From contig NZ_BMYU01000001.1 in the NCBI RefSeq assembly GCF_014652435.1, forward strand, positions 806,001-870,000: a stretch of DNA of 64,000 nt. Reading direction: 5' to 3'. The DNA is from Cognatundibacterium squillarum (lineage in GTDB: Bacteria > Pseudomonadota > Gammaproteobacteria > Burkholderiales > Burkholderiaceae_D). A program made the translations under genes and the position numbers. How positions within the stretch are numbered: the first letter of the stretch is position 1; every line of letters begins with the position of its first letter. Of this stretch, positions 320 through 63,617 are shown one piece after another. The notes under the pieces are model-generated. The model searched no databases, was not told the DNA's origin, and was given only the letters and a program-made list of their open reading frames with translations.

Positions 320-420
320 CCTGAAAACACCTCAAATGCGGTGTTCAGCACAGCGGTACTGCGGTCGTCGGCAGAAAGTCCGGGCCTCAGAAAAAGGCGG
401 ATGCGGACTTCTGCACAATC
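320..420 (-). repeat. Dispersed intergenic repeat, copy A
   Basis: This is one of six copies of a ~100 bp element in the window, here on the minus strand. Read on that strand it has a left module (TGTGCAGAAGTCCGCAT), the core GGACTTTCTGCCGACGACCG starting 33 nt after the left GCA, then a right module (TGTGCTGAACACCGCATTTG), then CAG-rich TTTTCAGG units. It begins at the uvrB stop codon, so uvrB and the repeat overlap by about 2 nt. No separate uvrB terminator is seen in this gap. Copy A is the most diverged just after the core (CAGTACCGCT instead of CCGGATCGCT). Confidence 0.9.
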
Positions 421-2527
421 AACCCTGTCCGCCGGCAATCTGGTTCACTGCATCATGCCCGCCGGCACCGAACAGCAAGTCTTTGAGTTTCGCCAGTTCA
501 TCGCGTACTTTGGCGGCTTTTTCGAATTCCAGATTTTTCGCGTGATCCAGCATTTGTTTTTCCAGACGCTTGATTTCTTTGCTGATCTGTTTCTCGCTCA
601 TGCTTTCGTAGCGTGCCTGCTCTTCCGCCACTTTCTGTTCCGGCTGTGAAGATTTGTCGGAATACACGCCATCAATAATGTCGCGGATTTGTTTCTGCAC
701 GCTCTTCGGTGTGATGCCATGTTCCAGATTGAAGGCAATCTGCTTGGTGCGGCGACGTTCGGCTTCTTCCATTGCACGACGCATGGAATCGGTGATGCGG
801 TCAGCGTACAGAATCGCTTTACCGTTCAGGTTACGCGCTGCGCGGCCGATGGTCTGAATCAGCGAACGTTCGGAACGCAGAAAACCTTCTTTATCTGCAT
901 CCAGAATCGCCACCAGCGACACTTCGGGAATATCCAGCCCTTCGCGCAGCAGGTTAATCCCGACCAGCACATCAAAAGTACCGAGACGCAGATCGCGGAT
1001 AATTTCCACCCGCTCCACTGTATCAATATCGCTGTGCAGATAGCGGACTTTGATACCGTTATCATTCAGGAATTCGGTCAGTTGTTCCGACATGCGCTTG
1101 GTCAGCGTTGTCACCAGCACACGCTCGCCTTTGGCGATACGCGCCACGGCTTCATTCATCAGATCATCAACCTGCGTGATTGCCGGACGCACTTCAATTT
1201 CCGGATCGACCAGACCGGTCGGACGCACCACTTGTTCCACCACCTGATCCGTGCGACGCGCTTCGTAATCTGCCGGTGTTGCCGACACGAAAATCGTCTG
1301 GCGCATCTTGCCTTCAAATTCTTCAAACTTCAGCGGACGGTTATCCAGCGCGGACGGCAGACGGAAGCCGTAATCGACCAGATTCTGCTTACGCGCACGG
1401 TCGCCGTTATACATGCCGTTCAGTTGGCCGATCATCATGTGCGATTCGTCGAGGAACATCAGCGCATCCTGCGGCAGATAATCCACCAGCGTCGGCGGCG
1501 GTTCACCGGGCGCAGCGCCGCTCAGATGGCGCGAATAGTTTTCGATGCCTTTGGTAAAACCGATTTCCGCCAGCATTTCCAGATCAAAACGGGTGCGCTG
1601 TTCAATGCGCTGCTCTTCGATCAGCTTGTTTTCACGCCGGAAAAAGTCCAGACGTTCACGCAACTCTTCTTTAATCGTTTCGACTGCACGCAACACGGTT
1701 TCACGCGGTGTGACGTAATGCGAACCCGGATACACGGTGAAACGCGGAATCTTCTGCCTGACTTTGCCGGTCAGCGGATCAAACAATTGCAGCGATTCAA
1801 TTTCATCGTCAAAAGTATCGACCCGCACCGCCAGTTCCGCGTGTTCGGCAGGGAAAATATCGATGGTATCGCCGCGCACACGGAAAGTGCCGCGTGAAAA
1901 GTCCATTTCATTGCGGGTGTACTGCATCTGAATCAGGCGGGCGATGATGTCGCGCTGGCTGACCTTGTCTTTGGCGCGCAGCGTCAGAATCATTTTGTGG
2001 TATTCGTTCGGATTACCGATACCGTAAATCGCAGATACTGTCGCCACAATCACCACATCGCGCCGCTCCATCAGCGATTTGGTGCAGGACAAGCGCATCT
2101 GCTCGATATGTTCATTGATTGCCGAATCTTTCTCAATGAACAAGTCACGCTGCGGCACATAAGCTTCCGGCTGGTAGTAATCGTAGTAAGACACGAAATA
2201 CTCGACAGCATTTTTCGGGAAAAACTCACGGAACTCGCTGTATAACTGCGCCGCCAGCGTTTTATTCGGCGCAAACACAATCGCCGGACGACCGCAGCGC
2301 GCAATCACATTCGCCATCGTGTAAGTCTTACCGGAACCGGTCACACCCAGCAGGGTCTGGAACGATAAGCCATCCTGTATGCCTTCAGTGAGACTGGCAA
2401 TCGCCGTTGGCTGATCGCCGGCCGGCGGGAAAATTTCATACAAGGCAAACGGGGAATCCGGAAAAGTACGGAATTTTGATTCGTCATAGCCTTCCGTATT
2501 TGCCATATTCACTGGTGCGACCGCCAT
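419..2527 (-). CDS. uvrB: UvrABC system protein B (excinuclease ABC subunit B)
   Basis: UvrB is the damage-verification helicase of nucleotide excision repair. It is loaded by UvrA, opens DNA at lesions and recruits UvrC. At 702 aa the length is normal with a short N-terminal extension. Seen in the sequence: Walker A GVTGSGKT (res 61-68), the damage-probing beta-hairpin around YYDYYQPEAYVP (res 114-125), a DESHM Walker B, helicase motifs including QTIGRAARN, and a C-terminal UVR domain (about 650-687) that binds UvrC. AAAGGAAGAG precedes the ATG at 2527; Met8 is an alternative start. I did not find a clear LexA box upstream. It is divergent from tyrB. The stop codon touches repeat copy A. Confidence 0.97.
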   Translation of the reverse strand: MAVAPVNMANTEGYDESKFRTFPDSPFALYEIFPPAGDQPTAIASLTEGIQDGLSFQTLLGVTGSGKTYTMANVIARCGRPAIVFAPNKTLAAQLYSEFREFFPKNAVEYFVSYYDYYQPEAYVPQRDLFIEKDSAINEHIEQMRLSCTKSLMERRDVVIVATVSAIYGIGNPNEYHKMILTLRAKDKVSQRDIIARLIQMQYTRNEMDFSRGTFRVRGDTIDIFPAEHAELAVRVDTFDDEIESLQLFDPLTGKVRQKIPRFTVYPGSHYVTPRETVLRAVETIKEELRERLDFFRRENKLIEEQRIEQRTRFDLEMLAEIGFTKGIENYSRHLSGAAPGEPPPTLVDYLPQDALMFLDESHMMIGQLNGMYNGDRARKQNLVDYGFRLPSALDNRPLKFEEFEGKMRQTIFVSATPADYEARRTDQVVEQVVRPTGLVDPEIEVRPAITQVDDLMNEAVARIAKGERVLVTTLTKRMSEQLTEFLNDNGIKVRYLHSDIDTVERVEIIRDLRLGTFDVLVGINLLREGLDIPEVSLVAILDADKEGFLRSERSLIQTIGRAARNLNGKAILYADRITDSMRRAMEEAERRRTKQIAFNLEHGITPKSVQKQIRDIIDGVYSDKSSQPEQKVAEEQARYESMSEKQISKEIKRLEKQMLDHAKNLEFEKAAKVRDELAKLKDLLFGAGGHDAVNQIAGGQG

Positions 2528-2766
2528 CGTGACTCTTCCTTTGTTAAAATGTCCGGCTATCCGGGTATTACGCGAAGCACAATCCGCAGGCCATCCGCCT
2601 GCACTCAGGTACCACCCGTACTGTCATTGTGTTGAATGCTGCATATCGTGCGTCAATGATTTGTGTAATCCCCCGCTGCTTTCACGGCAAAGAACCGGAA
2701 AAGCCGGACCACAGTTTTATTTCAACCACTTCTGTCACTGACACAGAAACATTTCATATTATCACG

Positions 2767-3981
2767 ATGACTGCTACCGCAACTTCTACCCTGTTTTCCG
2801 CGATTGACATGGCACCGCGCGACCCGATTCTGGGCGTGACTGAAGCATTCAATGCCGATACCAACCCGTCCAAAGTCAACCTCGGCGTGGGTGTTTACTA
2901 TGACGATAACGGCAAAGTACCGCTGCTGGCCTGCGTACAAAAAGCCGAAGCCCTGCTGATGGAAAAAGCTGCACCACGCACCTATCTGCCAATCGAAGGT
3001 CTGGCGGCCTATGACCGCGCCGTGCAGGATCTGGTATTCGGCGCGGACAGCGCAGTAGTACGTGAAAAACGTGCGATCACGGCACAGGCCATCGGCGGCA
3101 CCGGCGCACTGAAGCTGGGCGCAGACTTCCTGAAACGTTTTTCTCCGGACGCACAAATCTATATCAGCGACCCGAGCTGGGAAAACCACCGCGCGCTGTT
3201 TGAATCTGCCGGTTTTCAGGTCAATACCTACCCTTACTACGACGCGAATACCCGTGGTGTGAATTTCGACGGCATGCTGCAGGCACTGCAAACCATGCCA
3301 GCGGGTTCTGTCGTTGTGCTGCACGCTTGCTGCCACAACCCGACCGGTGCGGATCTCAGCGACGCGCAATGGACACAAATCATTGAAGTGGTGACCAGCC
3401 GTGGTCTGATTCCTTTCCTCGACATGGCCTATCAGGGCTTTGGCGAAGGCATCGAAGCAGACGGTCAGGTTGTGCGTCGCTTTGCCGATGCAGGCGGCCC
3501 GCTGTTTGTATCGAACTCGTTCTCGAAATCGTTCTCTCTGTATGGCGAACGTGTCGGCGCACTGAGCATCGTTGCTGCCAGCGCAGAAGAAGCCGCGCGC
3601 GTGATGTCGCAACTGAAACGTGTGATCCGTACCAACTACTCCAACCCGCCGTCACACGGTGGTCAGGTCGTTGCTACTGTGCTGTCCACACCGGAGCTGC
3701 GTCAGCTGTGGGAAGACGAGCTGGCGGGCATGCGTGTGCGCATCCGCGAAATGCGCGCAGCGTTTGTGGCTGGTCTGAAAGAAGCGGCGCCAAACCACAA
3801 TTTTGACTTTGTAATGCAGCAACGCGGCATGTTCTCTTACTCCGGTCTGAGCAAAGAGCAAGTCACCGTGCTGCGCGAACAGCATTCCGTGTACGCGGTG
3901 GATACCGGTCGTATCTGCGTTGCGGCGCTGAATAGCAAAAACATTGGCCACGTACTGAGCGCCATCGCACAGGTGCTGTAA
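2767..3981 (+). CDS. tyrB: Aromatic/aspartate aminotransferase (class I, PLP-dependent)
   Basis: This enzyme transfers amino groups between aromatic amino acids or aspartate and 2-oxo acids, using PLP in the cytoplasm. The 404-aa protein starts at MTATATSTLFSAIDMAPRDP. The open frame extends 46 codons further upstream, but that part does not resemble the family. Supporting motifs are NLGVGVYYDDNGKVPLL near the N-terminus, CCHNPTGAD (cofactor-binding Asn), and SNSFSKSFSLYGERVGAL, whose Lys254 forms the Schiff base; an Arg near the C-terminus fits substrate-carboxylate binding. No strong Shine-Dalgarno is visible at this ATG. TyrB versus AspC specificity cannot be settled from sequence; TyrB is the usual label next to uvrB in this group. 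Confidence 0.9.
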   Translation: MTATATSTLFSAIDMAPRDPILGVTEAFNADTNPSKVNLGVGVYYDDNGKVPLLACVQKAEALLMEKAAPRTYLPIEGLAAYDRAVQDLVFGADSAVVREKRAITAQAIGGTGALKLGADFLKRFSPDAQIYISDPSWENHRALFESAGFQVNTYPYYDANTRGVNFDGMLQALQTMPAGSVVVLHACCHNPTGADLSDAQWTQIIEVVTSRGLIPFLDMAYQGFGEGIEADGQVVRRFADAGGPLFVSNSFSKSFSLYGERVGALSIVAASAEEAARVMSQLKRVIRTNYSNPPSHGGQVVATVLSTPELRQLWEDELAGMRVRIREMRAAFVAGLKEAAPNHNFDFVMQQRGMFSYSGLSKEQVTVLREQHSVYAVDTGRICVAALNSKNIGHVLSAIAQVL

Positions 3982-63368: not shown

Positions 63369-63428
63369 ACAGCCTGCCCCGCTCCGCACTGACGACCGTT
63401 CAGTACAGGCAGCGCGGCAGGCTGTTTT
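63369..63428 (+). terminator. Terminator of the TonB receptor gene
   Basis: The 10-bp stem ACAGCCTGCC/GGCAGGCTGT encloses a ~37-nt loop with its own partial pairing and is followed by TTTATTT. It lies 26 bp after the stop. Confidence 0.75.
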
Positions 63429-63526
63429 ATTTCTGGCTTTAGCAGGCACCAACAACGCGGGCTGACACCTTCAGATGACCTCAAGCACCTGCAGTCAAAC
63501 CGTGCCTGACTACTGCCACTGTGCAT

Positions 63527-63617
63527 AACTCCGCATCTGCATTTTCCGGACAGCCAGACTTTCTGCCGACGACCGCCGGATCGCTATGCAGAAATCGGCA
63601 TTTGAGGTGTTTTCAGG
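63527..63617 (+). repeat. Dispersed intergenic repeat, copy F
   Basis: Left module is TGTGCATAACTCCGCATCTG, core AGACTTTCTGCCGACGACCG, right module TATGCAGAAATCGGCATTTG, then TTTTCAGG units. The two modules agree at 15 of 20 positions. TTTCTGC/GCAGAAA can pair. It lies between the TonB receptor terminator and the GFA gene, on the same strand as both. No other feature is seen in this 430-bp gap. Confidence 0.9.

Follow-up and report, generated by a model that had tools for sequence, protein, structure and literature searches.

Among the repeat families described in other bacteria, close counterparts of the one treated here are the repetitive extragenic palindrome (REP) with its bacterial interspersed mosaic element type 2 (BIME-2) and the REPINs. 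Their copies number in the hundreds and lie between genes, usually near 3' ends at convergent or tandem junctions (PMC3733652). BIME-2 are gyrase sites in Escherichia coli, where gyrase sites are enriched downstream of transcription units as well as in BIME-2 (PMC6379681). The E. coli gyrase motif covers 130 bp, with a 36-bp centre and two 47-bp arms of periodic GC content (PMC6379681). In the right arm of the strong gyrase site (SGS) of Mu, AT repeats face the protein (PMC11626157), and gyrase is described as wrapping 48 bp in addition to a 35-bp G-segment (PMC12393610, preprint).

A stretch of 64,000 nucleotides from Cognatundibacterium squillarum (contig 1:806001-870000 of a 4,185,104-bp draft genome in 20 contigs; hereafter the window) contains six copies of an intergenic element of roughly 130 bp, which recurs about 310 times in the genome. 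This repeat family is real, large, lineage-specific and of unusual anatomy, and with high confidence it is neither a REP, nor a known RNA, nor a simple miniature inverted-repeat transposable element (MITE). The explanation favoured here, which remains tentative and falls somewhat short of an even chance, is that these elements are putative protein-wrapping sites acting at the DNA level, and most likely strong gyrase sites.

The element resembles REP/BIME-2 and REPINs in its hundreds of intergenic copies and in their placement. Unlike these families, it has no hairpin and no apparent tie to a REP-associated tyrosine transposase (RAYT), and whereas a REP measures 20-40 bp, it extends over about 130 bp, with a phased one-sided arm, a fixed core and two dyads. 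Like the Mu SGS and the E. coli motif, it is about 130 bp long, carries an arm, on the right side only, in which AT and GC alternate in phase with the helix, and is placed where positive supercoils would gather. It differs from strong gyrase sites by its base-specific core and dyads, by a left half without a period and by being a family of hundreds of related members within a single lineage.

Anatomy and number of the elements

A first-pass annotation of the window had reported six copies that align without gaps, occur in both orientations and share an invariant core. All six are present where they were placed, each with an exact CTTTCTGCCGACGACC, and the gapless alignment holds over the 93 columns of the profile alignment. 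The invariance stands for CTTTCTGCCGACGACC (6/6), but not for a core starting with GGACTTTCTG, as the copy at 63517 (copy 6) has AGACTTTCTG. A profile search of the window returned these six only as strong copies (84-96 bits), four of them at convergent and two at tandem junctions. With columns numbered from the first G of the core (column 0), the copies, the parts of copy 2 and the adjoining genes are as follows (window coordinates).

290..419, minus strand: copy 1, spanning columns -39..+90, at a convergent junction
419-2527, minus strand: uvrB, the last base of whose stop codon is the left edge of copy 1
6823..6952, plus strand: copy 2, at a convergent junction, the preceding gene being chemoreceptor-like (4647-6671, plus strand)
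6827..6840, plus strand: left dyad of copy 2, TGC-N-RA-NN-TC-N-KCA, columns -35..-22, from column frequencies
6862..6877, plus strand: nearly fixed core of copy 2, GACTTTCTGCCGACGA, columns 0..+15, 92-100% conserved in 100 copies picked without the core
6892..6905, plus strand: right dyad of copy 2, TGC-N-GA-NN-TC-N-GCA, columns +30..+43, at a distance of 65 bp from its left counterpart, from column frequencies
6905..6952, plus strand: arm of copy 2 with A- or T-tracts at a period of about 10 bp, columns +43..+90, based on the whole family
19697..19826, plus strand: copy 3, at a convergent junction, flanked by a 3-hydroxybutyrate dehydrogenase-like and a CoA-transferase-like gene
43450..43579, plus strand: copy 4, at a tandem junction, downstream of pnp (43724-45853, minus strand)
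49259..49388, minus strand: copy 5, at a tandem junction, downstream of ilvC (49554-50603, minus strand)
63518..63647, plus strand: copy 6, at a convergent junction after an open reading frame (ORF; 61225-63342, plus strand)

The ORF whose 3' end adjoins copy 6 is preceded, 58 bp upstream, by a thiamine pyrophosphate (TPP) riboswitch (61072-61167).

The left edge of the element is abrupt at -39, with columns -75..-40 carrying at most 0.15 bits in 99 exact-core copies, and is followed rightward by the left dyad, a looser region containing a T tract, and then the core, the right dyad and the arm. The right side fades without a defined end, and column frequencies give no inverted ends. Next to the nearly fixed columns 0-15, columns 17-25 are freer. 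In the arm, A+T content peaks near +45, +55, +65, +75 and +85, successively weaker and with G+C between the peaks, and the tract at +54..+56 is swapped as a whole, being TTT in 63/99 copies, AAA in 28/99 and another sequence in 8/99. Core and arm lie in a common helical phase, with a joint permutation value (strength and phase) of 0.0002 at a period of 10.0, 0.005 at 10.25 and 0.007 at 10.5. As an observation in its own right, columns -25/-24 (GT or CG) and -5/-4 (AG or GC) switch their paired-base states together, with few intermediates and no obvious subfamilies.

In the whole genome, the exact 18-bp core occurs 157 times (reversed control, 0). With up to two mismatches it has 274 matches (125 on the forward strand, 149 on the reverse; reversed-pattern control, 1). 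A pattern of 16 spaced anchor bases, all outside the core, has 310 matches when up to one mismatch is allowed (reversed control, 0). A chance origin of the repeat is excluded, because these counts far exceed those of the reversed controls. A seeded random draw of 400 kb of the genome (called coding fraction, 0.84) contained 35 copies scoring above 40 bits, equivalent to about 366 in 4.185 Mb; both the anchors and the scaling agree with the hundreds of genome copies that had been forecast from the window.

Placement, conservation and distribution

The copies are dispersed between genes, as had been proposed, and none lies inside a called gene, either among the 35 copies of the random draw or among 152 copies collected from 761 kb (short stretches gathered largely around known copies; coding fraction, 0.77). 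In the random draw, copies occupy 19/55 convergent, 12/224 tandem and 2/52 divergent junctions (Fisher 1.2e-8, convergent versus rest), the copies themselves being distributed as 20 convergent, 12 tandem, two divergent and one at a sequence end. Thirteen 20-kb stretches drawn earlier, of which twelve contain already listed copy sites and which are therefore biased in density and occupancy, gave nearly the same picture (convergent 14/41, tandem 10/176, divergent 1/42). The collected set comprises 86 convergent, 43 tandem and eight divergent copies as well as 15 at ends.

Across 149 of the 152 collected copies (three were dropped for core mismatches or cut ends), column information spans 0.08 to 2.0 bits, and saturated columns adjoin fixed ones; because columns were classed as fixed or free from the same data, pair counts by column class are descriptive. 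In the 761 kb, the 152 copies lie at 43-101 bits and the best match below them at 19 bits, a gap that is not upheld in the random draw. There, 32/35 copies reach at least 70 bits, on a profile that was trained on intact copies and hence favours them, six full-length copies at 18-55 bits are degraded, and a seventh low match (35 bits) belongs to an intact copy truncated where its stretch stops. Degradation of copies is thus real, yet it is a minority state. From saturated columns beside fixed ones, together with the intactness of most copies, we infer purifying selection that probably acts on most single copies; mere decay after insertion is unlikely, because it would not give saturated columns next to fixed ones.

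The distribution in relatives was followed in a genus set of 43 genomes, including this one, with strict filters that lose weak matches among the congeners. Under these conditions 39/42 congeners have no copy at E values up to 0.001, the others being G001 with three copies (four at E up to 0.01), G011 with two and G061 with three. A profile check downstream of pnp (30 loci, including that of this genome) found the element in 0/29 congeners. Comparison with 400 kb of G001 yielded 11 comparable gene adjacencies, three of which hold the element here; all three are convergent and 211-273 bp longer here than in G001, and the ends of the two flanking proteins are intact in either genome, so that the element is extra DNA at 3/3 comparable junctions. 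In 398 other genomes of the order, there were four weak partial matches (21.5-22.9 bits). The rarity in the genus, the extra DNA at junctions and the scarcity across the order indicate that the family expanded in this lineage.

Overall, the interpretation given by the first-pass annotation is supported by these searches, and the phased arm, the two dyads, the convergent-junction bias and the rarity in the genus are features beyond it. A wide spread of the family was rejected: among the matches listed, which may omit near records, six records of named genomes contain the exact 18-mer, and by eye none of them resembles the element beyond it. A plasmid or phage origin was likewise rejected, since one copy used as the query found no similar DNA in a plasmid or a viral collection, and the two viral contigs with the exact 18-mer fail, by eye, to match beyond it. 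Other repeat families at junctions in the 400 kb of G001 had at most four partners. No published account of the repeat family was found in a literature search that was run without the organism name and thus says little.

A candidate DNA-wrapping site and competing explanations

The phased tracts, and the indifference of the arm to which strand carries AAA or TTT, suggest DNA that is wrapped on a protein, and a maintained protein-wrapping site is predicted with moderate confidence. In the mechanism proposed, the one-sided arm of phased A- and T-tracts would be the wrapped DNA, the core and dyads would set its register, perhaps through a second, as yet hypothetical protein, and the wrapping protein, most likely gyrase, would absorb at the element the positive supercoils that are pushed together between converging genes. 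Gyrase is put forward as the wrapper because of the size of about 130 bp, the AT/GC arm and the placement; as such it is a candidate, held with low to moderate confidence.

Several observations weigh against gyrase wrapping. The periodic strength of the core taken alone is marginal (permutation value 0.06 at a period of 10.0, 0.03 at 10.25 and 0.02 at 10.5), and the left 40 bp (-40..0) lack a 10-bp period and peak near 7.5-8 bp. The gyrase motif described in E. coli is symmetric and has a period of 10.75 bp (PMC6379681). Gyrase needs neither a fixed 16-bp core nor dyads, nor does it explain why 39 of the congeners lack the element, and the degraded full-length copies of the random draw have to be set against copy-by-copy maintenance as well. 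Finally, the placement is compatible both with function at convergent junctions and with mere tolerance there, because the REP elements of other bacteria occupy similar places (PMC3733652). Since the fixed core, the non-periodic left half and the rarity in the genus are not derivable from gyrase alone, a second base-specific protein, or another wrapper altogether, is likely.

This leads to the alternative that survives best, namely that a dedicated DNA-binding protein other than gyrase occupies the core and both dyads and wraps or bends the DNA there, either to organise the nucleoid or to block polymerases that converge. A base-specific core and two like-patterned dyads spaced by 65 bp call for a protein that recognises sequence, and a binding protein confined to the lineage would account for the near-absence of the element from the genus. 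The likeness of the AT/GC arm to the known gyrase arm speaks against it, and no gene for a dedicated binder turned up, although no systematic search was made; on balance this explanation is possible but doubtful.

A non-autonomous mobile element of MITE or REPIN type, spread within the lineage by a hypothetical enzyme and surviving where insertion harms little, would fit the extra DNA at all three comparable junctions, the absence after pnp in 29 congeners, the expansion in one of 43 genus genomes and the degradation of some copies. As with MITEs, the copies are small and dispersed, and the junctions that hold them are short in the relative. Unlike in MITEs, inverted ends are missing, the right end is undefined and conservation is uneven between columns, with saturated columns beside fixed ones where even decay would be expected, and near-identity between copies is restricted to near neighbours. 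A transposase search limited to the Y1 (RAYT) family returned a single match in this genome (PF01797, 38 bits), which has counterparts in 7/7 congeners tested, element-bearing or not. We consider mobility an unlikely explanation.

Neighbouring copies raise the further question of whether the element is a recombination site or a portable block of homology, through which single accessory genes are exchanged and same-orientation copies are left on both sides. Same orientation was found for 32/39 adjacent collected pairs less than 5 kb apart (some regions having been chosen as clusters), for 4/5 close pairs of the random draw and, on contig 1 (75 copies by anchors with no mismatch), for 12/13 pairs less than 4 kb apart versus 32/61 farther apart. 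Nine ORFs enclosed by copies in this genome, hand-picked from 22 and thus not a fair sample, comprise two SUKH genes, one Tdi1-like gene, one HD-CE/HATPase gene and five ORFs without a Pfam match; in G001 a copy pair flanks a pretoxin-HINT ORF, and two of the seven genes with tyrosine-recombinase matches in the genome end beside a copy. Some of the genes enclosed by close copies are of immunity or defence type. Same-orientation copies around single accessory genes recall, in places, the attC arrays of integrons. Unlike attC sites, the element has no special single-strand fold, its copies are mostly solitary and no integron integrase was identified. Close gaps on contig 1 are no commoner than random spacing predicts, 5/9 of the enclosed ORFs have no Pfam match, and other enclosed genes resemble ordinary ones, which leaves this exchange improbable.

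Some loci with neighbouring copies deserve a record of their own. At contig 1:242000-249500, a 1008-aa HD-CE/HATPase gene, with a conjectured role in defence, lies between two copies of the same orientation, and a 339-aa tyrosine recombinase gene (5662-6681 within the locus, minus strand) ends beside one copy. At contig 4:221900-229000, three same-orientation copies, 93-94% alike between neighbours, form a cassette-like array, with a SUKH (SMI1/KNR4) gene and two small ORFs lying between the copies. A gene for a 728-aa phage-integrase-domain protein (locus L052, 2589-4775, minus strand) ends about 15 bp from a copy. In G001, G011 and G061, diverged copy pairs lie about 2 kb apart; G001 and G011 share the site of their pair but only in part the genes it encloses, which in G001 include the pretoxin-HINT ORF.

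An RNA-level element of the 3' untranslated region, be it a terminator, a stability signal or a small RNA signal, is very improbable. It would suit the 30/86 convergent cases of the collected set in which the left edge lies within 28 nt of the upstream stop codon, and a terminator hairpin follows the stop codon at several of the junctions inspected. Separate terminators stand beside the element. Of eight predicted pairs none has changes on both sides, and copies at tandem junctions point in both senses (23 one way, 20 the other). Six copies tested for folding have z values of -2.26 to 1.26, one copy at -2.26 and the others at -1.57 to 1.26. Rfam 15 gave no match for the window at gathering scores or for copy 2 at E values up to 1. 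The hairpin that defines REP and BIME is missing from the element, which the first-pass annotation had not recognised as a member of either family.

Two other identities were rejected. Variable columns do not fall at third codon positions (judged by eye, unscored), as they would in a short coding frame. DNA uptake sequences (DUS) and uptake signal sequences (USS) are short motifs that are frequent inside genes too, where no copy of the collected or the random set lies. Elsewhere in the window, three consecutive tRNA-Asn (gtt) genes with identical Rfam scores are found at 4047-4440.

Possible implications for supercoil management at gene junctions

Taking the wrapping site, possibly bound by gyrase, one step further, a third of the convergent junctions would carry a portable two-part topology site, in which dyad, core and dyad would serve as a base-specific address that fixes the register, and the single arm as a wrapping track indifferent to strand. 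Selection would maintain most of these sites individually, and with a supercoil sink roughly every 13 kb they would add up to a grid encoded in the sequence; this extension is speculative, and we consider it rather doubtful. If the elements are wrapping sites, the genome offers a natural experiment on topological sinks where transcription units collide, in which occupied and empty junctions could be compared within one genome (19/55 convergent junctions occupied) and with the congeners that have no element (39/42). The family would then be a case of repeats that are kept copy by copy for the shape of their DNA, and not for a hairpin or a transposase.

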